From: Bacteroidota bacterium
GTDB lineage: Bacteria > Bacteroidota > Bacteroidia > NS11-12g > UBA9320
Direction: 5' to 3'
DNA: 64,000 nucleotides
NCBI GenBank assembly: GCA_018700895.1
Contig: JABIUV010000024.1
Span: 1-64,000, forward strand
A program made the translations under genes and the position numbers. The stretch's first letter is position 1, and every line of letters starts with the position of its first letter. Below the pieces are notes generated by a model. That model ran no database searches and was not told where the DNA came from. It worked only from the letters and a program-made list of their open reading frames with translations. Positions 33,830 to 45,637 of this stretch are shown piece by piece.

Positions 33830-35116
33830 TTATACGAGTAAATCTTTGAAGCGAGAGGCTTGCAACGGACGGCTATAGGCTAGTACCTCTTTATTTTCTG
33901 GCAAAATGGCTTTGCCACTTTGCCAATCCTCGTGTACTTTGTTAAGATAAGCAGTTATTGCCGGGACATCAGTATCGAAGGACTGCCCTGCTACTGTTTC
34001 TTCTAAGATGTGTGCTACAAATCCATCTACTTTGCCTATGTAAATAATCGGCTTGCGTGCGGCCAAGTACTCATATACTTTGGCTGGGATTCCTCCTTCT
34101 TTTTGGTCCTTGTTTAATGGTCCGCATACGAGCAAGAGGCTCGATTTTTGCAAGTAGCGGATACTCTCTTTATGCGGCACGTAGTCACTAAATAAAGTGT
34201 GCTTGATGAGGTTGCGTTGCTCTAGCTCCTCGTGCAACTGAGGGTATACCGAACCAACAAACTGGAGTTTAAATTCTATACTATCCTTTAATGAAGATAA
34301 TGCATCCAGAAACGGATTGATATTATACTGCTCGCTTATTGTGCCCGTGTAGGTAATCGTGAAAACATCGTTTTTGCCGTAATCAAAATCTTCAAAATCC
34401 TTAGGATCGTACCCATTAGGTATAGACGTGAATTTATCACTGTTTACCTTGCTCGATTTTGACGCAAAAAATGAAATATATACAGGCGTAGCAGTGGCAA
34501 TATGGTCTGCCTGCTCTATGACCTTACGTTCCATACGCAGATTCATAATGTGCGAGAGGCGGCTATGATTCAGCAGCTCATAGTAGTATATGTCGGTCCA
34601 CATATCCCTAAAGTCTGCAATCCAATTTACGTTGAGCTTACGTTTGAGCTTCTTACCTATGAGCTGTACGGAGTGTGGAGGGCTGGAAGTGATAATATTG
34701 GTGATGCCGTGTTGTCTTATGATTTGTTTAGCTGTTTTGTAGGCATAAGGTTTCCAGTATTTTCGGGGGTCGGGGATAAATAGGTTGGTCCGAAGAAAGA
34801 TTACTAGTTGTTGTTTCCAGTTCTTTTTATCTACGTTTCCAAATCCGGCAGAGGGAATGCTTTTTTTGCCAAATAGTTTGGCAAAAATTCCAAGGGGTTC
34901 AAAAGACTTGGTTTGGTGCAGTTTTACATCAGGGTGGATGTCATTTTGCAACGTAGGGTCTAGGGTGGTGTAGCTTGCGTAGTCACCACGAGGTGTTAGT
35001 ACGTGTACTTCTACTCCTTGTTCGGCAAGGTAGTGACTCAGTTTTAACCAACGTTGCACACCTGCACCTCCGCTAGGTGGCCAGTAGTAGGTGAGTATGA
35101 GTACTTTTTTTTGCAC
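33830..35116 (-). CDS. Glycosyltransferase, GT4-like (GT-B fold)
   Basis: The 428-residue protein has the N-terminal domain of GT4-type enzymes (YYWPPSGGAGVQRWLKLSHY, about 9-28, then EVHVLTPRG) and a C-terminal donor-binding domain with ITYTGTISEQYN and FSDYVPHKESIRYLQKSSLL, plus GGIPAKVYEYLAARKPIIYI, the usual E-x-x-A-like donor site region. It transfers a sugar from a nucleotide donor in a cytoplasmic or membrane-associated reaction of glycan assembly. The next gene on the strand is a GT2 enzyme, which ends 11 bases upstream of its start, so they likely work on the same glycan. Confidence 0.9.
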   Translation of the reverse strand: MQKKVLILTYYWPPSGGAGVQRWLKLSHYLAEQGVEVHVLTPRGDYASYTTLDPTLQNDIHPDVKLHQTKSFEPLGIFAKLFGKKSIPSAGFGNVDKKNWKQQLVIFLRTNLFIPDPRKYWKPYAYKTAKQIIRQHGITNIITSSPPHSVQLIGKKLKRKLNVNWIADFRDMWTDIYYYELLNHSRLSHIMNLRMERKVIEQADHIATATPVYISFFASKSSKVNSDKFTSIPNGYDPKDFEDFDYGKNDVFTITYTGTISEQYNINPFLDALSSLKDSIEFKLQFVGSVYPQLHEELEQRNLIKHTLFSDYVPHKESIRYLQKSSLLLVCGPLNKDQKEGGIPAKVYEYLAARKPIIYIGKVDGFVAHILEETVAGQSFDTDVPAITAYLNKVHEDWQSGKAILPENKEVLAYSRPLQASRFKDLLV

Positions 35117-35127
35117 GGTGAATGTTG

Positions 35128-36018
35128 TTAGTTCTTAGGGTTGATTGATTGTGCGACAAAGCCAAAGCGTTTATATACCTTACGAAGTACGTCTATTTTC
35201 CAGTTTTGTATGTAGTAATTCTTATAGACGAGTTGAGGAGTATATCGAACGAGGTCTTTTATAAATACGGCACTGCCTATGATAATTTGCTTGGCAATAT
35301 TTAGTATCTTGTTGCCTGTTTGATATTTGGCCATGTCTACTCCTCTGCTTTTACTGGCGTTCATAAACCACTGAACATTAAGTTTGTAGGCGGCAACTAC
35401 GTGATATATAATAAGTTGATCATCATAGACCCTCGCAATATTGCTTTTTATCATTCGATCTTGTAGCTCAGATTCTTCTCCATACCCAATGCTCGTTCCG
35501 GTCATACCTAGGGCGGTATTGAATGGCCCTACTTGCTCAAAAATATCTTTGTGTATACACATTATGCCTCCAGACAGGTACTCGTTTTTGGGCAATATGC
35601 CAGCTTGTTCAAAGTTGTGCGAGTTGCTACCGTATTGCACCTTGTGCCATTTGGGTTGTCCATAGTGATACCAGGGGTAGTATACCCCACCAAAAACCAA
35701 GTGGTTTGATTTGCAATGTTGGAGAGCTTTGGCTACTAAGTTTTTGTGTGATTTGGCATCATCGTCTAGATACATTACCCATTTGCCCTGAGCTTCGGCA
35801 ATCGCTTTATTTCGGGCGAATGATAGGCCCGTATTATCCTCAGAAACATACCTAGCTTCGGGGTAGGATTCTATTAAGGTTTTTACTTTTTTGGTGCCAT
35901 TATCTATCACTAAGAGTTCTGCATCGGCAGTGAGTTGCGGTATGAGTGAGTCTAAACAATGTGTTAAGAGCTCTTCTCTGTTGTAAGTGCAGATGGCTAT
36001 GGTAAGTGTGAGACTCAA
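35128..36018 (-). CDS. Glycosyltransferase family 2
   Basis: The 296-residue protein begins with the GT-A nucleotide-binding strand LTIAICTYNREELLTHCLDS, followed by LLVIDNGTKK, the DXD motif in YLDDDAKSHKN (about 80-90) and GGIMCIHKDIFEQVGPFN with GYGEESELQDRM, which is the acceptor and catalytic base region. A C-terminal region with hydrophobic patches may associate with the membrane. It is the first gene of a minus-strand glycosyltransferase pair and is divergent from the big + strand glycan cluster, with 90 bases between the two start codons. Confidence 0.9.
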   Translation of the reverse strand: MSLTLTIAICTYNREELLTHCLDSLIPQLTADAELLVIDNGTKKVKTLIESYPEARYVSEDNTGLSFARNKAIAEAQGKWVMYLDDDAKSHKNLVAKALQHCKSNHLVFGGVYYPWYHYGQPKWHKVQYGSNSHNFEQAGILPKNEYLSGGIMCIHKDIFEQVGPFNTALGMTGTSIGYGEESELQDRMIKSNIARVYDDQLIIYHVVAAYKLNVQWFMNASKSRGVDMAKYQTGNKILNIAKQIIIGSAVFIKDLVRYTPQLVYKNYYIQNWKIDVLRKVYKRFGFVAQSINPKN

Positions 36019-36108
36019 TGTTTGGCAAAGAAAAACTTTAATACGCTAAATGCGGAGTAAAATGTAGGTCGGTTTGTTATTTAGACGTATTAACCTTTGA
36101 TTTGTCCT

Positions 36109-37020
36109 ATGTTAACGGAAAAATTAAAACAGGCATATTTTTCGAATCAGGACAATGATACTCCAGCTTTTAGCCCTGAAATAAAGGCACTTAGCGGATT
36201 TTCAGGTGTAAAGTTTATGAAAACGCTCCAAAGTCTGGCTAAATTATTTGTTGACGAGGAGAAATCATATGTGGAAGTAGGAGTTTTCCAAGGATTGACA
36301 CTTATGGCAGTGGCTTCAGAAATTCCTGATTTCGAGGCTGTTGGAATAGATAATTTTGCTTTTTTTGATAAAGAAAAACGCAATCAAAAAATTATAGAAG
36401 AACGTAGGTCAAAGCTGAAATTAGAAAATGTCAAATTGGTAAATATGGATTATGAAGATGCCTTTTTGGATTTCGCGAACATCACTGATAAAAAAATAGG
36501 GCTATACCTTGTAGATGGTCCTCACGATTACCGCAGTCAGATGATGTGCCTGCTCTATGCTAAGCCATTTTTAGCAGATGAGTCTGTCATAGTAATAGAT
36601 GATTGTAATTATAAGCACGTGCGACAAGCGAACAGAGATTTTTTAATATCTCATCCTGAATACAAGTTGGTTTTCGAGTCTTATACCGAAGCACACCCTA
36701 ATAATCAATCCGCAAATGTTGTGCAACAATCCAGAGAAGGATGGTGGAACGGGATCAACGTAATTGCTCGCGACCCCAATAACGTTTTGTCTACGATGTA
36801 TCCACCTGTTGAGCAAGACAAGTCATTATTTGTGAATGATCACACGATGCATAGCATAAGGTATCCAGAATATATTACAAAATTCATTCCTATAATTAAT
36901 ACCATTAGCTCTTTTATGAATAGTAAATGGAAGCCAAAAAATGAATTTATTGGAGACTTTGATAAACTTAACACGCACAGTAAAGGATTGAAGGAACGTC
37001 TAAATAATGCCTTAGATTAG
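36109..37020 (+). CDS. Class I SAM-dependent methyltransferase of the glycan cluster
   Basis: The ATG at 36109 gives 303 residues; a TTG at 36097 is in frame but less likely. The SAM-binding strand KSYVEVGVFQGLTLMAVA (motif I, about 53-70), AVGIDNFAFFD and YLVDGPHDYRSQMMCL (motif IV, about 138-153) fit the Methyltransf_24 / CmcI-like group that modifies small molecules and sugars. A C-terminal extension (about 220-303) has no recognised domain. It opens the + strand glycan cluster, so O-methylation of a surface sugar is a reasonable inference. Confidence 0.83.
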   Translation: MLTEKLKQAYFSNQDNDTPAFSPEIKALSGFSGVKFMKTLQSLAKLFVDEEKSYVEVGVFQGLTLMAVASEIPDFEAVGIDNFAFFDKEKRNQKIIEERRSKLKLENVKLVNMDYEDAFLDFANITDKKIGLYLVDGPHDYRSQMMCLLYAKPFLADESVIVIDDCNYKHVRQANRDFLISHPEYKLVFESYTEAHPNNQSANVVQQSREGWWNGINVIARDPNNVLSTMYPPVEQDKSLFVNDHTMHSIRYPEYITKFIPIINTISSFMNSKWKPKNEFIGDFDKLNTHSKGLKERLNNALD

Positions 37021-37060
37021 TATTGGCCATAATGACTACTTAGGATAACTAATTTAAGAT

Positions 37061-38482
37061 ATGCTCTTCCAGTCATATGAGTTCTTGTTTTTCTTCCCAA
37101 CTGTTTTTATCCTCTTTTGGGTACTCAATAAAGGGAGTTTGTCAGCGAGAAATCTTTTTCTGCTTGGAGCAAGCTACTTCTTTTATGGGTATTGGGATTA
37201 TAGGTTCCTGGCTCTTATTCTCGCTAGCTCGTTCGTAGACTACACCGTAGGACTCCTATTGTACAAGTCAGTGCAACAAAATAGGCGTAAGTGGCTGTTG
37301 TTTTTTAGCATCGCATTTAATCTAGGGGTTTTGGGATATTGCAAATACCTCAACTTCTTTATCGAAAACTTTGCAGGTATGTTAAGTTCTATAGGTATAG
37401 TGCAGGACATTAGTACGTTGTCCATCATCTTACCGGTTGGTATTAGCTTTTATACTTTTCAAACAATGAGTTACACCATTGATGTCTATCGAAAGAGCAT
37501 CAATGCTGAGAAAAATATTATTACGTTTTTGACTTTTGTTTCCTTCTTTCCGCAGCTAGTAGCAGGGCCTATAGAGCGGGCAAGTAACTTGTTGCATCAG
37601 TTTAACCGGAAATCCAAATTTAACATGGATCTTGGAGCTGATGGGTTAAGACAAATTCTGTATGGCCTGTTCAAAAAAATAGTGATAGCAGATAATTGTG
37701 CGGTATATGCCAATCAGGCCTTTGCCGATTATCACGAGTTGTCATCTCCTTATATTATATTAGGAGCTGTTTTTTTTGCATTTCAGATTTATGGAGATTT
37801 TTCGGGTTACTCAGATATAGCGAGAGGTGTAGCAAAGCTGTTAGGATTCGACCTTATGAAAAATTTCAACTTCCCATACTTTTCTAAGAGTATAGGAGAG
37901 TTTTGGCATAGATGGCATATTTCCTTGTCTACTTGGTTTCGAGATTACGTGTATATACCTCTAGGAGGTAGTAGAGGAAAAAGAAGTGTTACTGTGCGAA
38001 ATGTATTTATAATCTTTGTGGTGAGTGGATTTTGGCACGGAGCCAATTGGACTTTTATAGTCTGGGGTGTTGTGCACGCTTTGTTATTTGTGCCTTCTAT
38101 CTTTAGGGAGAAGAAGGACAAGATTTCACCCATCGAAGTGTCACTTAGCAGTCGAGTACTGGATTTTGGCAAGATACTATATACATTCAGCCTCGTATGC
38201 ATCACTTGGGTGTTTTTTAGAGCAGATTCCATTGAGCATTCATTGAGTTATCTAGCAGGGATATTCCATTTGGAGCACATACCGTATAATGGTTACTATC
38301 TTAAATTTGTTCCAGTGCTAGGTCTTTTTATAATTTGGGAGTGGTTTAACAGGCATACAGAATATGGATTTGGGGTTTTACCAAAGCATAAAATGGTACG
38401 GTGGTGTTTGTATATATGTGTGATTTGCATAATCATCTACTTCAGACGAGAAGATAATGCGTTTATATATTTCCAGTTTTAA
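37061..38482 (+). CDS. MBOAT family membrane O-acyltransferase (AlgI/PatA-like)
   Basis: The 473-residue protein has about ten membrane helices and the MBOAT hallmarks: FWHRWHISLSTWFRDYVYIP (about 285-304) and the invariant catalytic His in VSGFWHGANWTFIVWG (about 321-336). Members move acyl groups, mostly acetyl, from cytoplasmic acyl-CoA to periplasmic polysaccharides. The next gene overlaps it at its first in-frame ATG or starts ten bases after its stop. That gene encodes an SGNH-like protein, the usual partner that completes the transfer. Confidence 0.92.
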   Translation: MLFQSYEFLFFFPTVFILFWVLNKGSLSARNLFLLGASYFFYGYWDYRFLALILASSFVDYTVGLLLYKSVQQNRRKWLLFFSIAFNLGVLGYCKYLNFFIENFAGMLSSIGIVQDISTLSIILPVGISFYTFQTMSYTIDVYRKSINAEKNIITFLTFVSFFPQLVAGPIERASNLLHQFNRKSKFNMDLGADGLRQILYGLFKKIVIADNCAVYANQAFADYHELSSPYIILGAVFFAFQIYGDFSGYSDIARGVAKLLGFDLMKNFNFPYFSKSIGEFWHRWHISLSTWFRDYVYIPLGGSRGKRSVTVRNVFIIFVVSGFWHGANWTFIVWGVVHALLFVPSIFREKKDKISPIEVSLSSRVLDFGKILYTFSLVCITWVFFRADSIEHSLSYLAGIFHLEHIPYNGYYLKFVPVLGLFIIWEWFNRHTEYGFGVLPKHKMVRWCLYICVICIIIYFRREDNAFIYFQF

Positions 38483-38492
38483 CTCTTTGTTT

Positions 38493-39359
38493 ATGAAAAA
38501 ATTTGTCACATCAGTCATCGCGTTTAGCCTATTACTTGTTGCGTATTATGGAGTGAATATAATGGTGAACAGTCACCTAAATAGTAAGCAGGTAAAAGTA
38601 GGCGATAGTAAGATAATAGCGGTAGGTGATTCGCATATCATGACAGCCGTTGACCCTCAGTTTTCAATGGATTTAATAAACATTGCCCAATCTTCAGAAC
38701 CTTATTTAGCATCTTATCTCAAAATAAAAAAGATTCTAGAGAGCCAAAGTGAGGTGGAAACTGTTGTACTTGGCTTGGGTTATCACAACCTGTCAGGTTA
38801 TTACGATCAAAAACTATTGACCAATGAATCTACAGCCATTTTTGATAATAACATACAGTTATTAGGTACTTATGAACTGAGTAATCAATCTTACGATTTT
38901 GAACGCTACGTGAATTCTTTTCTCAAAAATCAGTGCATATATCCTCAGTTGAAAAAACGCTACCTGGGTGCCTACAAGGCCACACGTTCCGACTTAGCCA
39001 AAGCAGATTTGTCACAAACAGTCAAGAAGCATTTTTATGAAGAAGAGCAGATACACGATTTTTCTGATACTTTTAATCTGTTTTACCTCGGCCAGATTGT
39101 TAATCTTTGTTCTGATTATAATATAAATTTGGTTCTTGCTAAAACGCCTACAACGAAAAAGTATATGTCTCAAGTGCCTATTGTTTACAGGGGTAAGTTG
39201 CAGGCCGTAGTTGCCAATTTTAAAAAGAAAGGAGTGTATACTTTTGCCCTGGAGATAGAAGATAAAGAAGTATATTTCAAAGACCATAGTCACTTATCAG
39301 CACAAGGAGCTCAAGTTTTTACACCCAAGTTACTCGATTATATAGCACGCCTAAAATGA
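38493..39359 (+). CDS. SGNH/AlgX-like partner of the MBOAT acyltransferase
   Basis: With the start at ATG 38493, the protein has 288 residues. An ATG at 38457 would overlap the MBOAT gene by 26 bases. It has an N-terminal signal anchor (FVTSVIAFSLLLVAYYGVNI), an SGNH block I-like motif IIAVGDSHIMTAVDP (about 44-58) and the C-terminal D-x-x-H in KDHSHLSAQGAQ (about 265-276). This layout matches the periplasmic O-acetyltransferase or esterase domain that works with an MBOAT protein. Its 3' end overlaps the next gene by four bases. Confidence 0.83.
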   Translation: MKKFVTSVIAFSLLLVAYYGVNIMVNSHLNSKQVKVGDSKIIAVGDSHIMTAVDPQFSMDLINIAQSSEPYLASYLKIKKILESQSEVETVVLGLGYHNLSGYYDQKLLTNESTAIFDNNIQLLGTYELSNQSYDFERYVNSFLKNQCIYPQLKKRYLGAYKATRSDLAKADLSQTVKKHFYEEEQIHDFSDTFNLFYLGQIVNLCSDYNINLVLAKTPTTKKYMSQVPIVYRGKLQAVVANFKKKGVYTFALEIEDKEVYFKDHSHLSAQGAQVFTPKLLDYIARLK

Positions 39360-40267
39360 AAGAATTTAAAAAACACAACCCTCCATTTGGTAAAATTCAC
39401 TTTTACGCCCTCAAACTCTTTAATGTCTTAAATTTCCCGCCCTTCAGCTGGCTTATAGATACGTGGACGTGGCGTAAACAAGCCAATTTTTTTAGCGTGC
39501 TGAAGAATACATGGAAGTATAAGCTTGCAGCAAAGGGGCTGATACTTACGGAAAATGAGAGGCGAATTAAGGCACTCAAAGATAGCCACAAAGGAGAGCG
39601 ATGTTTTATTATAGGCAATGGTCCGAGTCTCAATGATTGTGATCTTACATTGCTGAAAGACGAAGTTACTTTTGGCGTGAATGGAATATACCTGAAGGCT
39701 GATAAAATGGGGTGGGCTCCTACTTACTACACCGTAGAAGATATCTTTGTCGCCGAGGATAGGTGTGATGAGATAAATGTATATGATAAACCTAAAAACA
39801 AGTTTTTTGGTAATTATTTACACTATTGTATAGAGCCAGATGATAAAACTTTACTACTTAATATTAAGGCAGACTATTCGCTGTATAAAAACTTCCCTCA
39901 CTTCTCCAAGGATGCACTCCGTTATCTTTGGGTAGGCGGTACGGTGAGTTACCTCAGTATGCAACTCGCTTATTATATGGGTTTTAGTGAAGTTTATCTC
40001 ATTGGTTTTGATCACTCGTATGATATACCAGATGATGCTGAGGTGAAACAATCAGAAATCATGTCAAACTCAGATGACCCTAATCACTTTGACCCTAACT
40101 ACTTTGGCAAGGGGTACAGGTGGCATGATCCGCAAGTAGACCGTATGGAGAAATCATACGAAAGAGCGAAAGCAGAGTTTGAAAATGACGGTAGAAGAAT
40201 TATAAATGCCACGGTCGGTGGTCACTTAGAAGTATTTCCTAGGGTAGATTATACTACATTGTTTTAA
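39356..40267 (+). CDS. MptE/DUF115-like protein, possibly a glycosyltransferase
   Basis: The 303-residue protein has at about residues 82-98 the motif ERCFIIGNGPSLNDCDL, followed by FGVNGIYLKADKMGWAPTYY, then YYMGFSEVYLIGFDHSYDIP near 200-219 and a His-rich MSNSDDPNHFDPNYFGKGYR. The GNGPSL motif is that of DUF115/6-hydroxymethylpterin-pyrophosphokinase-like proteins and of the related Maf/CST-like sialyltransferase fold. A role in moving an acidic sugar is an inference from the CMP-sugar-type gene downstream. It overlaps the SGNH gene by four bases. Confidence 0.75.
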   Translation: MKEFKKHNPPFGKIHFYALKLFNVLNFPPFSWLIDTWTWRKQANFFSVLKNTWKYKLAAKGLILTENERRIKALKDSHKGERCFIIGNGPSLNDCDLTLLKDEVTFGVNGIYLKADKMGWAPTYYTVEDIFVAEDRCDEINVYDKPKNKFFGNYLHYCIEPDDKTLLLNIKADYSLYKNFPHFSKDALRYLWVGGTVSYLSMQLAYYMGFSEVYLIGFDHSYDIPDDAEVKQSEIMSNSDDPNHFDPNYFGKGYRWHDPQVDRMEKSYERAKAEFENDGRRIINATVGGHLEVFPRVDYTTLF

Positions 40268-40276
40268 TTTGTAGTA

Positions 40277-41215
40277 TTGAAAATATCCATAATCATACGC
40301 TGCTTCAATGAAGAGGAACATATTGGTAAGCTACTCACGGGTATAGAGCACCAAGATCATAAAGATGTTGAGGTAATTGTAGTAGACTCCGGGTCTACGG
40401 ATTCTACAGTTGCTATAGCTTCTAAGTTTGATACGCATATCATTAAGATAAAACCTGAAGATTTTTCATTTGGCTATGCACTGAATGTGGGTTGTGAGGC
40501 AGCCAGTGGTAACATTCTTCTTTTTGGGAGTGCCCACGTATATCCGCTTTATCAAGACTGGTTAAGTAAGATGGCAGCACCCTTTATAACCGATGAGAAG
40601 GTAGCCCTCGTATACGGTAAGCAGAGGGGAGATCACCGCAACAAGTACTCGGAGCACCAAATATTCAAACAATGGTTTCCCGACAAATCTAATTATAACC
40701 AGCAAATACCTTTTTGCAATAACGCCAACTGTGCTGTCCGAACCACGCTATGGGAAAATCAACCATTTGACGAATTGCTTACGGGGCTAGAAGACCTAGA
40801 TTGGGCCAAAAAAATACAAAACAAGGGTTATAAGTTAGTGTATGAAGCACAAGCTACAATTATTCATGTACACGAGGAAAAAGCAACGAACATCAGAAAT
40901 AGATATAAACGTGAAGCTATTGCCCTCAAAAAAATAAATCCAGACAGTTCTTTTAGTTTTATGACTATGGTGCGATTGTTAGTTATTAATATCGCCCATG
41001 ACCTAAGACAATCGTTCACGGATGGTAAGCTTTTAACTTATTATGGTGAGATTTTTATGTTTAGGTACAATCAGTTCATTGGTACATACGCTGGTCATAA
41101 GGAAACTGAGACCAAGCTCAATGATAAACTGAGAACCAAGTACTACTACCCGCCAACCAAAGATGCAGTGATGCCTTACGATGACGAACAGCAGCTTATA
41201 GATTATAATGAATGA
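40277..41215 (+). CDS. Glycosyltransferase family 2
   Basis: The protein is 312 residues long from a TTG start. The GT-A features are MKISIIIRCFNEEEHIGKLL, VIVVDSGSTDSTVAIASKFD and the DXD-like end of the donor site around SAHVYPLYQDWL. The catalytic region has FCNNANCAVRTTLWENQPFD and GLEDLDWAKKIQNKG (about 175-189), with a C-terminal RLLVINIAHDLRQSF stretch. It probably adds a sugar during repeat-unit assembly. Its 3' end overlaps the cyclase-family gene by eight bases. Confidence 0.9.
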   Translation: MKISIIIRCFNEEEHIGKLLTGIEHQDHKDVEVIVVDSGSTDSTVAIASKFDTHIIKIKPEDFSFGYALNVGCEAASGNILLFGSAHVYPLYQDWLSKMAAPFITDEKVALVYGKQRGDHRNKYSEHQIFKQWFPDKSNYNQQIPFCNNANCAVRTTLWENQPFDELLTGLEDLDWAKKIQNKGYKLVYEAQATIIHVHEEKATNIRNRYKREAIALKKINPDSSFSFMTMVRLLVINIAHDLRQSFTDGKLLTYYGEIFMFRYNQFIGTYAGHKETETKLNDKLRTKYYYPPTKDAVMPYDDEQQLIDYNE

Positions 41216-41840
41216 TAAGATAATAGATATCTCCGTAAAGGTAACTTCTAGCTTGGTGAAATGGCCAGATAGTTTTGGGTTTGCTACGGAACCGATGCTC
41301 GAAATAGCCGGTGAAATAGAAGCAAACGTAACCAAGATAGAAATGGATGTACATTTTGGAACACACGTAGATGCCCCACTACATTTTTTGGCTGAGGGAG
41401 ATGATATGAGTACCATGCCGCTGCGTAAACTAGTGGGTAAATGTTATGTGATGGATTGTGGAGAGGCTAGCGTTATATCAGCTGAAGTTGTACAACACCT
41501 ACCTAAGAATGCACAAAAAATACTTTTTAAAACAAAAAATTCACAACTCTGGGAAGATCCTAGCCACGTTTTTAAAGAGGATTTTGTAGGAATAGATGCC
41601 CTAGGTGCCGCAATGCTAGCCAAAATGAATTTGGACTTGGTAGGAGTGGATTATCTATCCATACAAGGTTACAAAGAACACAACGATACGCACAGAAACC
41701 TGTTAGAAGCTAATGTGGTCCTCCTCGAGGGCATAGATTTACGAGAAGTAGATAAGGGCTGGTACGACTTGTACTGCCTTCCTATCAAATTACAACATAT
41801 AGAAGCCGCTCCTTGTAGAGCGATATTGATAAAAAAATAA
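41208..41840 (+). CDS. Cyclase-family metal-dependent hydrolase (kynurenine formamidase-like fold)
   Basis: The 210-residue protein has the signature VHFGTHVDAPLHFLAEGDDM (about 45-64), the family motif HGTHxDAPxHF with its metal-binding His and Asp residues, and a C-terminal YLSIQGYKEHNDTHRNLLEA with another metal-type H-x-x-x-H pattern. Members act on formylamides, lactones or N-acyl sugars. It starts a run of four tightly linked enzyme genes (cyclase, cytidylyltransferase, 2-hydroxyacid dehydrogenase, SDR). Its stop shares a base with the start of the next gene. Confidence 0.85.
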   Translation: MNDKIIDISVKVTSSLVKWPDSFGFATEPMLEIAGEIEANVTKIEMDVHFGTHVDAPLHFLAEGDDMSTMPLRKLVGKCYVMDCGEASVISAEVVQHLPKNAQKILFKTKNSQLWEDPSHVFKEDFVGIDALGAAMLAKMNLDLVGVDYLSIQGYKEHNDTHRNLLEANVVLLEGIDLREVDKGWYDLYCLPIKLQHIEAAPCRAILIKK

Positions 41841-42508
41841 TGAATAACATCGTTGCCATACTCCCCATGAAACACACGTCTACTCGTGTGCCAGGAAAAA
41901 ACTACCGTGCCTTTGGTGATAAAATGCTTTTTGAGCATATTCTATTGACTATGCTAGCCTGCGAAAAAATAGACTTGGTAGTGGTAGATACAGATAGCCA
42001 GACCATAATGGATAAAATCGCCACTGATTATCCTAAGGTGAAAGTATTGGAACGACCTGAGCACCTAAGACCTGGGGACACCCCTATGAATGACGTGTTG
42101 CTCAACACTATCAGCCAAGTGCCATCCAAGTTTTATCTGCAAACACATAGTACTAATCCTCTTTTAACCCAGAAAAGTATTGATGCTGCTATTGATAAAT
42201 TTGAGGCTAAGTTCCCTATATATGATTCCTTGTTTAGTGTTACTCGCCTTCAAACTAGGCTATGGAATGAGTTGGCATTGCCGATGAACCACAATCCAAA
42301 CATTCTTTTACCTACGCAAGATTTGCCTCCTGTCTACGAGGAGAATTCGTGCATCTACCTCTTTACAGAAGAGATACTTCGTAAGAAACATAATAGGATC
42401 GGAGACCGTCCTATGATGCATGAGATAGAGCCTATAGAAGCTCAAGATATAGATACAGAGCAAGAATATTTGATAGCTGAAGCCATATATTTAAACAATT
42501 CTAAATGA
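41840..42508 (+). CDS. Cytidylyltransferase of the CMP-sialic acid/KDO synthetase family
   Basis: The 222-residue protein has the nucleotide-binding VAILPMKHTSTRVPGKNYRA (about 4-23), the PEHLRPGDTPMNDVL segment and FYLQTHSTNPLLTQKSID, matching NeuA/KdsB-type CMP-sugar synthetases. These couple CTP to a 2-keto-3-deoxy acid sugar to give CMP-sugar and pyrophosphate. The preceding and following genes do not include a NeuB or KdsA synthase, so the substrate is unknown. It overlaps the cyclase gene by one base and the next gene by four bases. Confidence 0.88.
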   Translation: MNNIVAILPMKHTSTRVPGKNYRAFGDKMLFEHILLTMLACEKIDLVVVDTDSQTIMDKIATDYPKVKVLERPEHLRPGDTPMNDVLLNTISQVPSKFYLQTHSTNPLLTQKSIDAAIDKFEAKFPIYDSLFSVTRLQTRLWNELALPMNHNPNILLPTQDLPPVYEENSCIYLFTEEILRKKHNRIGDRPMMHEIEPIEAQDIDTEQEYLIAEAIYLNNSK

Positions 42509-43428
42509 AGATACTCGTAACTTGCCCACCCATGCTCAAACAGATAGAGGAATATCGCTCACTGTTTGAGGATAAAAACATTGAATTAGTAACGCCTCAG
42601 GTGGTTCAGATAATGACTGAGGAGCAACTTATGCAAATACTGCCACAAATGGACGGCTGGATAATAGGAGATGATCCAGCTACGGAACAAGTTTTTGCAG
42701 CGGGTGTTGCAGGCAATCTTAAGGCTGCAGTAAAGTGGGGAGTAGGGGTTGATAATGTTGATTTCGAAGCGTGCAAAAAATTAAACATTCCAATCATCAA
42801 CACGCCAGGAATGTTTGGTAATGAAGTATCGGACGTAGCCATAGGTATGATGCTAAACCTTACACGTAGGCTTCACGATATAGATAGGGAAGTTAGAAAT
42901 GGAAATTGGATAAAACCAGTAGGGAACTCTACGGCAGGCAAAAAAGTTGGTGTAGTTGGTTTTGGAGATATAGGTTTGTCTATAGGGCGTAAGTTGGTGG
43001 CGTTTGATATGGAGGTCATCGCATATGACCCCCACGCGAGAAGCGAGTTTGGTATTCCAGTTTGTACTTTCCCTGATGAGATAGAGTCGTTAGATTATTT
43101 ATTCTTGGCTTGTGCCCTAAATGATTCCACTTATCATCTTATCAATAAAGAAATATTAGATAAGCTGAAACCTACTGCTATATTGGTTAATGTGTCTAGA
43201 GGGCCACTTATAGATGAGCAAGCCCTCATAGCATCCTTGCAGGAAGGTAAATTTAGAGGGGTAGGACTAGATGTTTTTGAGGAGGAACCGCTCAGTGTAG
43301 CATCGCCATTGGCGTCCTTTGACAAGTGTTTTTTTGGTAGCCATAATGGTTCTAATACAAAGGAGGCCGTAGATAAAACAAGTTACAAGGCGATAAATTT
43401 ATTGTTTGGATTTTTGGAAAAAGAATAA
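42505..43428 (+). CDS. D-2-hydroxyacid dehydrogenase (phosphoglycerate dehydrogenase-like)
   Basis: The 307-residue NAD-dependent enzyme has the D-2-hydroxyacid dehydrogenase layout: VGVVGFGDIGLSIGRKLVAF (about 152-171, Rossmann nucleotide loop), ILVNVSRGPLIDEQALIASL (about 230-249, with the catalytic Arg), EEEPL (about 268, the Glu) and the His near the C-terminus in GSHNGSNTKEA. It oxidises a 2-hydroxyacid to the 2-keto acid or the reverse. It belongs to the CMP-acid cassette: it overlaps the cytidylyltransferase gene by four bases and the SDR gene by one. Confidence 0.92.
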   Translation: MKILVTCPPMLKQIEEYRSLFEDKNIELVTPQVVQIMTEEQLMQILPQMDGWIIGDDPATEQVFAAGVAGNLKAAVKWGVGVDNVDFEACKKLNIPIINTPGMFGNEVSDVAIGMMLNLTRRLHDIDREVRNGNWIKPVGNSTAGKKVGVVGFGDIGLSIGRKLVAFDMEVIAYDPHARSEFGIPVCTFPDEIESLDYLFLACALNDSTYHLINKEILDKLKPTAILVNVSRGPLIDEQALIASLQEGKFRGVGLDVFEEEPLSVASPLASFDKCFFGSHNGSNTKEAVDKTSYKAINLLFGFLEKE

Positions 43429-44162
43429 TGGCAAGGCAAATAATTATAACAGGAGCTAACGGTGGCATAGGTACTGCATTGTGTGAGGCCTATCATTCTC
43501 GAAATTTTGACGTGGTGGCTATAGATATACAGTCTATGGCTTCGCATAAATTCAAAAGTCAATATATTACTCTAGATCAAGATGAGTATGTGAGATCGAA
43601 GGAATATCGTAAAAAAATAGATGCTCAACTCTCCAAACTGAATCCTTCGGTTTTGATAAATAACGCAGCTACTCAGCTATTGGGTGAATTTTCAGTGCTA
43701 GATGATGATGACTGGACCACCACTATGAATGTGAACTTTCAGAGTTGCTATTTTCTTATAAAGGCTTGTTATGAGGCATTAGCCCAAAATATTGGTCAGG
43801 TAATAAATATTGGCAGTATACATGCAAACCAAACAAAGCCGCGATTTTTTGCTTACGCTGCTTCTAAGTCGGCACTCGTAGGGCTAACTAAAGCTCTTGC
43901 AGTAGAACTAAAGGGTAAGATTACAGTAAATGCTGTAAGTCCAGCTGCGATAGGTACAGATATGCTAAGGGCAGGGTTCGATAATGACGATAAAATGCTA
44001 AGCAAGTTAGCTGGCATTCATCCTTCTCAGGAGATTGGAAGTCCACAATTATTGGCAAATTTTATAACAGATATTACCCAAGCAAATAATCGATTTCTTA
44101 ATGGGTCTAATATATCTTATGATGGAGGAATTAGTAGTGCTTTGTTAGATTTGGATTACTAA
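43428..44162 (+). CDS. Short-chain dehydrogenase/reductase
   Basis: The 244-residue protein has the SDR nucleotide-binding IITGANGGIGTALCEAYHSR (about 5-24), INNAATQLLGEFSVLDDDDW (NNAG-like), the catalytic Ser in NIGSIHANQTK and the YAAS-K motif (YAASKSALVGLTKALAVELK, Tyr about 144 and Lys about 148), then VNAVSPAAIGTDMLRAGF. It is an NAD(P)-dependent oxidoreductase on a hydroxyl or keto group. It ends the four-enzyme cassette and its stop shares a base with the flippase start. Confidence 0.92.
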   Translation: MARQIIITGANGGIGTALCEAYHSRNFDVVAIDIQSMASHKFKSQYITLDQDEYVRSKEYRKKIDAQLSKLNPSVLINNAATQLLGEFSVLDDDDWTTTMNVNFQSCYFLIKACYEALAQNIGQVINIGSIHANQTKPRFFAYAASKSALVGLTKALAVELKGKITVNAVSPAAIGTDMLRAGFDNDDKMLSKLAGIHPSQEIGSPQLLANFITDITQANNRFLNGSNISYDGGISSALLDLDY

Positions 44163-45637
44163 TGGGAGTAATTGCTCGGCAAACATTAAAATCAAGTACA
44201 GTTGGCTACTTAGCTGCTGTGATTGGAGTTCTCAATACTTTTTTCATATATACTCTATGCTTTGATGAGGCAGAGTTGGGCCGATTTAGGTACGTGCAAG
44301 AGATGGGGATTATCCTAGCTAGTTTTTTTAGTTTGGGGATTACCAATGTAGTCGTTCGTTTTTTCCCTGAGTTTAGAGATGATACGAACAAGCATAACGG
44401 TTTACTGAGTTTTGTAATCGTTGTCTTGCTGGCGGGAATAGGCATTTTTTCTTTGTTGTATGCCATAACACGAGACTATTGGCCTGTTGAATTTCAAGAC
44501 AATATTGGGTGGATATTCTTTCTATTTGTCGCTATTATGTTCGCCAATTCGTTTTTTTACTATTCATCTAATTTTAGGCTTATTACGATTCCCAATGTGT
44601 TCAGACAATTAGGCGTGAAGATAGGGTTAGGTCTATCGGCACTTGCCTTTTTGTACCGTGGCATATCATTTGAAGAAACGCTTAATTACGTAGTGCTGGT
44701 ATATGCTGCGGCTACCTTAAGTATGCTTGGCTACCTTATCTATAAAGGGAACTTTGCTTTTGGATTGAATCTTAAGTTTTTCACAAATAAACGTCTAAAG
44801 AATATTGCCGTATTCGCTGGTTTTGGGATATTGAGTAGCTTAGGCAGTAGTTTGGCCAGTAAACTCGATGTATTTATGGTGACCGATATGCTTAGTTTTA
44901 GCAAGACTGGTGTGTACTCTATAGCTATGAGCATTACAGGCCTAATGATTTTAGTAACAGGGCCGATGATTTCTATATCGGGGCCTATCTTGGCGGAGTC
45001 ATTGGCAAAAAATGACCTGCCCCATGTGGAAGAAGTTTACAAAAAGTCAAGTGTTACTCTCTTCTTATTTGGATCTTTATTATTATTACTCTTATGGGTT
45101 AATATTGATAGCATTTTTGCCCTTATTCCCAATGGTGAGCGTTATACCTCAGGTAAAATAGTGATATTAATTCTTGGCATTGCCAAGCTAGCTGATATGC
45201 TTACGAGTGTGAATGAGGTGATTATTTCGTATTCCAAGTATTTCAGATTTAACCTCTATGCTCTCTTGCTTTTAGGTATTCTTAATGTTGGGGCAAATTT
45301 GCTGTTCATTCCCATGTTTGATATCGCTGGAGCAGCTTTAGCCACGTGTATGTCTGTGGTATTGTACAACGGAGCTAAAACGCTGTTTATTTACCATAAG
45401 TTTTCTATTCATCCATTCCAATCGTCGTTGCTCTATATCGCTATACTCGCTGTAGTATGCTACTTTGGGGTAAATGCCATCGGTAGCGTCTCTCAGCCTC
45501 TTCTGAGTATCGCTATGAAATCAACTATAGTGCTTATTGTATTTGGGTATGTTACATTGAAATTTAACTTTTCTGATGATATTACCCACCTCTGGAATCA
45601 AGTAAAATCAAAGGCGACAGCTATTTTTAATAAGTAA
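44162..45637 (+). CDS. Polysaccharide flippase (Wzx/MATE-like)
   Basis: The 491-residue protein has about 12-14 hydrophobic helices with the polysaccharide transporter layout (FFIYTLCFDEAELGRFRYVQ near the start; SSLGSSLASKLDVFMVTDML near 222-241). It would flip a lipid-linked oligosaccharide from the cytoplasmic to the periplasmic side of the inner membrane. It is the last gene of the glycan cluster and its start overlaps the SDR stop by one base, so the preceding cassette most likely builds part of the sugar that it exports. Confidence 0.92.
   Translation: MGVIARQTLKSSTVGYLAAVIGVLNTFFIYTLCFDEAELGRFRYVQEMGIILASFFSLGITNVVVRFFPEFRDDTNKHNGLLSFVIVVLLAGIGIFSLLYAITRDYWPVEFQDNIGWIFFLFVAIMFANSFFYYSSNFRLITIPNVFRQLGVKIGLGLSALAFLYRGISFEETLNYVVLVYAAATLSMLGYLIYKGNFAFGLNLKFFTNKRLKNIAVFAGFGILSSLGSSLASKLDVFMVTDMLSFSKTGVYSIAMSITGLMILVTGPMISISGPILAESLAKNDLPHVEEVYKKSSVTLFLFGSLLLLLLWVNIDSIFALIPNGERYTSGKIVILILGIAKLADMLTSVNEVIISYSKYFRFNLYALLLLGILNVGANLLFIPMFDIAGAALATCMSVVLYNGAKTLFIYHKFSIHPFQSSLLYIAILAVVCYFGVNAIGSVSQPLLSIAMKSTIVLIVFGYVTLKFNFSDDITHLWNQVKSKATAIFNK

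Follow-up and report, generated by a model that had tools for sequence, protein, structure and literature searches.

A cytidylyltransferase and dehydrogenase gene set recurring in bacterial surface-glycan loci may point to an oxidative route to activated sugar acids

The well-known glycan acids that are activated with cytidine monophosphate (CMP) are products of a condensation between a sugar and phosphoenolpyruvate (PEP) or pyruvate. How, then, is such an acid made at a locus that carries an activating enzyme and no condensing synthase? The question is raised by a stretch of 64,000 nucleotides from a Bacteroidota bacterium (assembly GCA_018700895.1, contig JABIUV010000024.1, positions 1–64,000), which in its full length is hereafter called the window. 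A preliminary description, made from the sequence alone, had singled out four overlapping genes at 41208–44162, directly before a flippase gene. They encode a cyclase-family hydrolase, a NeuA/KdsB-type cytidylyltransferase (CTP in the gene orders below), a D-2-hydroxyacid dehydrogenase (HDH) and a short-chain dehydrogenase/reductase (SDR). All of these open reading frames (ORFs) and their Pfam families were confirmed, and their starts and stops overlap by 1–8 bp. The further statement that no NeuB, KdsA or similar synthase accompanies the set holds at the locus and near most of its relatives. We tentatively propose, with confidence a little short of even, that these genes and their neighbours amount to a pathway complete in itself, in which a 2-ulosonic acid is formed, activated with CMP and attached to a glycan, all without a synthase that condenses PEP or pyruvate. 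The genes on which this proposal draws are the following.

39356–40267, + strand: MptE/Maf-like protein with a GNGPSL motif (Pfam PF01973), probable CMP-sugar transferase of a GT42-like kind
40277–41215, + strand: GT2 glycosyltransferase (PF00535), immediately 5′ of the cyclase gene
41208–41840, + strand: Cyclase-family metal hydrolase with an HxGTHxDAPxH motif (PF04199, 1e-17), proposed optional lactonase
41840–42508, + strand: NeuA/KdsB-type cytidylyltransferase (CTP_transf_3, PF02348, 3e-26)
42505–43428, + strand: HDH, SerA/GhrB-like, NAD type (PF02826/PF00389, 1e-51), proposed maker of the 2-keto acid
43428–44162, + strand: classical SDR, NAD type (adh_short, 2e-37), proposed sugar 1-dehydrogenase

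In order to see whether this arrangement recurs, 84,980 genomes were scanned with an alignment of five relatives of the cytidylyltransferase, and 457 relatives were confirmed among 501 candidate stretches. Neighbourhoods were read for the best 80 of these 457 relatives, for the window, and for three genome loci and five plasmid loci; an HDH gene lies close by in 60 of the loci read and is lacking in 29. Among the 60 HDH-linked loci, HDH comes directly after the cytidylyltransferase gene in 57 and is itself followed by SDR in 39; a GT2 gene stands directly before the cytidylyltransferase gene in 37 or is separated from it by the cyclase gene in a further nine, giving 46 together. In 41 of the 60 an MptE/Maf-like PF01973 protein is encoded no more than 9.5 kb from the cassette; NeuB or KdsA is found within about 9.5 kb in only four. 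The hosts belong to Bacteroidota, Alphaproteobacteria, Cyanobacteria and Chloroflexota, with single other proteobacteria; phage records gave no match. Since the gene order recurs across phyla, it is not due to chance. An Enterobacter plasmid, one of six plasmid loci read, with a relative of the cytidylyltransferase at 32% identity was set aside, as it carries its own NeuB and thus a different pathway. What recurs is CTP-HDH(-SDR); the cyclase gene, counted earlier as one of four, is present in only 14 of the 60 loci. Moreover, the original boundary proved too narrow, for the GT2 gene (40277–41215) and the MptE-like gene (39356–40267) belong to the unit. A functional unit made of a GT2-CTP-HDH-SDR core together with an MptE/Maf-like transferase is well supported.

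The association also holds where the genes are not neighbours. In several genomes, mostly of Saprospiraceae and Cytophagales (loci L034–L100), the cytidylyltransferase gene stands alone among housekeeping genes (secG-like, RdgB-like, enoyl-CoA hydratase), which suggests a role conserved throughout the lineage and not one in a variable antigen. HDH is encoded elsewhere in 22 of 25 such genomes (50–58% identity), often within an HDH-SDR-MptE operon, the three genes standing together in 14 of the 22. As the first survey had been anchored on the cytidylyltransferase, HDH was also searched for alone (E ≤ 1e-60) in 395 genomes of the class. It was found in four, with SDR beside it in all four and the cytidylyltransferase beside it in three; the fourth genome (G246) has the same HDH match as the genome of locus L057, which carries a lone cytidylyltransferase. 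A Fisher test of 22/25 against 4/395 gives p of about 1e-29, a value that ignores shared ancestry and serves as an indication only. This split arrangement implies that the cytidylyltransferase, HDH, SDR and MptE-like protein travel together without being neighbours.

What the individual proteins may do was approached from their families. Their catalytic motifs are intact and kept in relatives (HxGTHxDAP in the cyclase, R/E/H in HDH, S/Y/K in SDR, from alignments). None of the cassette proteins reaches the cut-off of the NCBIfam models for arylformamidase, PseF, PGDH (phosphoglycerate dehydrogenase) or aldose dehydrogenase, so that each can be assigned to a broad family but to no particular substrate. 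The cytidylyltransferase, a stand-alone protein of 222 residues, belongs to the PF02348 superfamily (93.3 bits, cut-off 22.6), and its profile matches solved NeuA proteins over the full length (best 2.5e-20). Judged by this profile it is of NeuA rather than KdsB type and would be expected to activate a 2-keto acid; it falls into a distinct subfamily marked by the motif LPMK/VPMRHxSxRVxGKN. In both dehydrogenases the end of strand β2 carries an aspartate that favours NAD (60 of 62 HDHs and 40 of 43 SDRs aligned), as expected for oxidations. The nearest solved relatives of HDH are PGDH, hydroxyphenylpyruvate reductase (HPPR), glyoxylate reductase and 2-ketogluconate reductase. Aldose and glucose dehydrogenase are the best NCBIfam matches of SDR, all far below cut-off, and its solved relatives include, among others, proteins of the aldohexose dehydrogenase type.

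The hydrolase is not a fixed member of the set, and three unrelated families share its place. The window protein and 13 aligned members conserve the metal motif HxGTHxDxPxH of the Cyclase superfamily PF04199; it is not a kynurenine formamidase (TIGR03035), scoring 131 bits against an equivalog cut-off of 223. An essential role of the cyclase was considered and dropped, since most loci lack it. Families capable of lactonase activity occur in the HDH-linked loci as cyclase (14), SMP-30/gluconolactonase (7) and UlaG-like protein (1). In locus L025 a metallo-β-lactamase-fold protein of the UlaG kind fills the place between GT2 and the cytidylyltransferase. The association with SMP-30 was noticed first and counted afterwards, within 9.5 kb in seven loci (four looser, on the other strand or several kb off). 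The SDR and SMP-30 genes overlap by 4 bp in L069, whose SDR is 39% identical to that of the window, and likewise in L115; in L084 the order is CTP-HDH-SDR2-SMP30. Pfam confirms the alternative hydrolases of L025, L069 and L084. Three unrelated lactone-opening families next to an SDR of NAD type point to a lactone intermediate, and replacement by SMP-30 and UlaG-like proteins suggests that the cyclase may act as an aldonolactone hydrolase.

The likely user of the CMP-sugar is, by homology, the MptE-like protein. When the PDB was searched with a profile of 27 cassette-linked homologues, the GT42 sialyltransferases CstI and CstII ranked best (E 4.5e-4) and above archaeal MptE. An AlphaFold2 model (mean predicted local distance difference test score, pLDDT, 85.5) gave as top Foldseek matches ST8SiaIII with cytidine triphosphate, the Methanocaldococcus jannaschii HPPK (MptE) and ST6GALNAC2 with CMP, at TM-scores of 0.30–0.48. 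Sequence and fold thus place the gene at 39356–40267 with GT42/Maf-like proteins, at a low TM-score. In Maf flagellin transferases the PF01973 domain resembles Cst-II, and these enzymes use CMP-ulosonates including CMP-Kdo (PMC11339370). Some relatives are of unusual build. In two Alphaproteobacteria (L069:11674–16044 and L090:11765–16513) the MptE-like domain lies within very long ORFs that start with a "YTDSRG" domain; in loci of Mucilaginibacter, Limnovirga and Larkinella (e.g. L037:12366–13166) this latter domain is encoded by a gene of its own and has no Pfam match. On the Enterobacter plasmid mentioned above (L117:9367–10911), a NeuB-annotated protein opens with a GKGPSV stretch like that of GT42/MptE and is perhaps a transferase-synthase fusion.

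Taken as one pathway, the genes would act as follows. SDR would oxidise the C1 of an aldose with NAD+ to a lactone, which would open to the aldonic acid either spontaneously or through the cyclase-family hydrolase (SMP-30 or UlaG-like proteins in relatives). HDH would then oxidise C2 with NAD+ to yield a 2-keto-aldonate, whose cyclic hemiketal form the NeuA-like enzyme would trap as a CMP derivative, pulling the unfavourable oxidation forward. The GT42-like MptE-like enzyme and GT2 would place the acid on a surface glycan, to be exported by the flippase. This would yield a hexulosonic acid or one like it, still bearing the 3-hydroxyl that 3-deoxy-octulosonic acid (Kdo) and the sialic acids lack. 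That such a route, in which one NAD dehydrogenase oxidises C1 and another C2 of an aldose, cytidine triphosphate serves to trap the product and a sialyltransferase-like enzyme installs it, operates across phyla and gives an acid sugar with its 3-hydroxyl retained is somewhat more doubtful than the general proposal. The preliminary description had imagined a hydroxyacid oxidised to a keto acid and then activated; HDH, as the constant partner of the cytidylyltransferase, fits such an oxidation. The gene unit is well supported, and from it we infer the chemistry: the order and direction of the reactions, the substrate and starting sugar, and the product.

Several observations speak against this proposal. 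No lactonase is in view in 38 of the 60 HDH-linked loci and no SDR in 14; one Larkinella carries the cyclase while its near relatives lack it, and this enzyme may do something else. D-2-hydroxyacid dehydrogenases often operate as reductases, and the sequence cannot assign a substrate to the SDR or HDH subfamily. TM-scores between the MptE-like model and sialyltransferases are low (0.30–0.37). Finally, at least some of the wider cytidylyltransferase family probably uses acids made by aldol reactions, as the loci with HpcH-type aldolases described below indicate.

The own assembly (2.4 Mb in 59 contigs, completeness 100%) was searched for a synthase. For NeuB (PF03102), whose co-regulated presence elsewhere in the genome had been named as what would speak against a new route, it gave one weak match only, inside a PF00793 protein read as 3-deoxy-arabino-heptulosonate-7-phosphate (DAHP) synthase; a PF03102 synthase of nonulosonic acid biosynthesis was thus not found. 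A second PF00793 gene reads as KdsA (contig C42), and a KdsB-type gene distinct from the cytidylyltransferase gene of the cassette is found on contig C1. The cassette enzyme is not this KdsB and has no KdsA beside it. An HpcH/HpaI aldolase candidate turned out to be pyruvate kinase, and the only gene of the dihydrodipicolinate synthase (DHDPS) family, considered as a NanA-like lyase, is DapA. The sole PF01081 gene, for 2-keto-3-deoxy-6-phosphogluconate (KDPG) aldolase, was rejected as the synthase, lying in a probable alginate-degradation locus. SMP-30 gave a sub-threshold match only in this genome. KdsA, DAHP synthase, DapA and the KDPG aldolase are each accounted for by another function. This leaves the normal Kdo pathway as the only way in which the genome can supply glycans with a 2-keto-3-deoxy sugar acid. 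The surroundings of the aldolase gene (contig C17, L123:139–12000) likely represent an alginate-utilisation locus, with lyases, a transporter, an SDR, a sugar kinase and KDPG aldolase.

These results bear on three other explanations. The keto acid could come from an aldolase or synthase elsewhere, as KdsA-derived Kdo or as 2-keto-3-deoxygluconate (KDG) from KDPG aldolase, with HDH and SDR supplying a precursor or tailoring the acid and the lone cytidylyltransferase activating it. The genome does hold KdsA, KdsB and KDPG aldolase. Moreover, three loci (L023, L024, L103) and an Acuticoccus plasmid (L114) combine a related cytidylyltransferase with an HpcH/HpaI aldolase, a haloacid dehalogenase (HAD) phosphatase, an extended SDR, a different HDH and usually a cyclase, an architecture that is itself NeuB-free and in which the aldolase and phosphatase possibly substitute for KdsA and KdsC. 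HpcH-type aldolases can use hydroxypyruvate, which an HDH could make. We nevertheless hold this explanation to be unlikely. KdsA acts together with a dedicated KdsB in the universal Kdo pathway, the KDPG aldolase belongs to the apparent alginate locus, and the two synthases NeuB and KdsA are as rare near the cassette as counted above. Furthermore, it is hard to see what a D-2-hydroxyacid dehydrogenase would do with a 2-keto acid already made, since reduction by it would block activation.

The same objection meets the idea that the cassette modifies a ready-made ulosonic acid, in the manner of EpaA/EpaB, which convert pseudaminic acid to its 8-epimer in Acinetobacter: HDH is a 2-hydroxyacid enzyme and not an aldo-keto reductase, and it would destroy the 2-keto group. 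EpaA/EpaB are a proven system of CTP-transferase, aldo-keto reductase and SDR (PMC12053666), and PseF is the best NCBIfam match of the window cytidylyltransferase, far below cut-off. The NeuB/PseI precursor pathway is present neither in the genome nor near most relatives, and an epimerisation would leave lactonases without a role, which makes this explanation very improbable. Hardly better is the chance that the enzyme activates an acid that is not a 2-keto acid, such as a hydroxy acid of the lactate or glycerate type made by HDH as a reductase, for a side group linked through CDP or CMP. The best-known homologues of HDH (VanH, GhrB) are reductases, and activation of non-sugars with cytidine triphosphate exists in other enzyme families. 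Against it stand the profile match to NeuA-type CMP-ulosonate synthetases and the sialyltransferase-like character of the partner transferase, and here too the lactonases would remain unexplained.

The remaining genes of the locus describe the setting in which the cassette lies.

36097–37020, + strand: methyltransferase of the Methyltransf_24 family (PF13578) at the locus edge, with a 46% homologue (blastp) inside the HpcH-type locus L024; its link to the pathway is weak
37061–38482, + strand: MBOAT O-acyltransferase, DltB/AlgI-like (PF03062, 2e-26), outside the core, probably for glycan decoration
38457–39359, + strand: putative SGNH-like partner of the MBOAT protein, without a Pfam match, with a GDSH motif seen by eye
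44162–45637, + strand: Wzx-like flippase (Polysacc_synt, PF01943, 1e-7), part of the locus and not of the cassette

The MBOAT and SGNH-like pair (37061–39359) adjoins the MptE-like gene and probably serves glycan O-acylation. The cassette was found in two of 19 examined genomes of the genus. In four relatives (L130–L133, compared with window positions 33830–45637) the same site, from a YfhO-like/glycosyltransferase block to the flippase and adk, carries other glycan genes. The flippase is retained next to adk in these cassette-free congeners and is therefore counted as part of the locus and not of the pathway; the cassette itself is an exchangeable module within a surface-glycan locus of variable content.

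The enzyme set is apparently undescribed and would give CMP-ulosonate glycans by a different way to the acid; no account of it as a pathway was found in an open-access library searched in full text, which does not by itself prove novelty. A second, oxidative route would, if true, mean a new class of bacterial surface acid sugars. It would also explain a gene set that many genomes carry with generic annotation only, and provide a marker by which such glycans could be predicted; the pathway has few enough components for reconstitution in vitro.

Among known systems, the pathways of nonulosonic acids (sialic, pseudaminic, legionaminic) resemble the cassette in NeuA-type CMP activation and a GT42/Maf-like transferase within a surface-glycan locus, whereas the cassette lacks NeuB-type PEP condensation and genes for a UDP-amino-sugar precursor, and has instead two NAD dehydrogenases and an optional lactonase. 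The Kdo pathway (KdsD, KdsA, KdsC, KdsB) likewise activates an acid sugar with a cytidylyltransferase of the same superfamily; its KdsA and KdsB are encoded elsewhere in this genome, none in the cassette, whose own enzyme is NeuA type by profile. The nearest proven system to combine a CTP-transferase with oxidoreductases is EpaA/EpaB, which with AciE represents the 8-epimerases of Acinetobacter and shares the pairing of a CTP-transferase domain with a reductase and an SDR (PMC12053666). These require pseudaminic (or acinetaminic) acid first, and EpaA has an aldo-keto reductase domain where the cassette has a 2-hydroxyacid dehydrogenase; measured against the definition in that report, the cassette cytidylyltransferase is unfused and NeuB was not found in the genome. 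As cited in PMC10433991, the Escherichia coli K3 capsule holds 4-deoxy-2-hexulosonic acid (Dengler 1988), which shows that capsules can contain an ulosonic acid of six carbons; it differs in being a 4-deoxy sugar, the likeness drawn from that citation concerning the sugar and not the genes. It was the sole precedent to emerge from the E. coli capsule literature consulted. Finally, non-phosphorylative sugar oxidation, with its sugar 1-dehydrogenase and lactonase, and 2-keto-gluconate metabolism (GhrB/TkrA) contain the steps proposed here for SDR, lactonase and the 2-ketoaldonate/aldonate dehydrogenase; these routes are normally catabolic, whereas the cassette would couple the same steps to CMP activation and glycan transfer.

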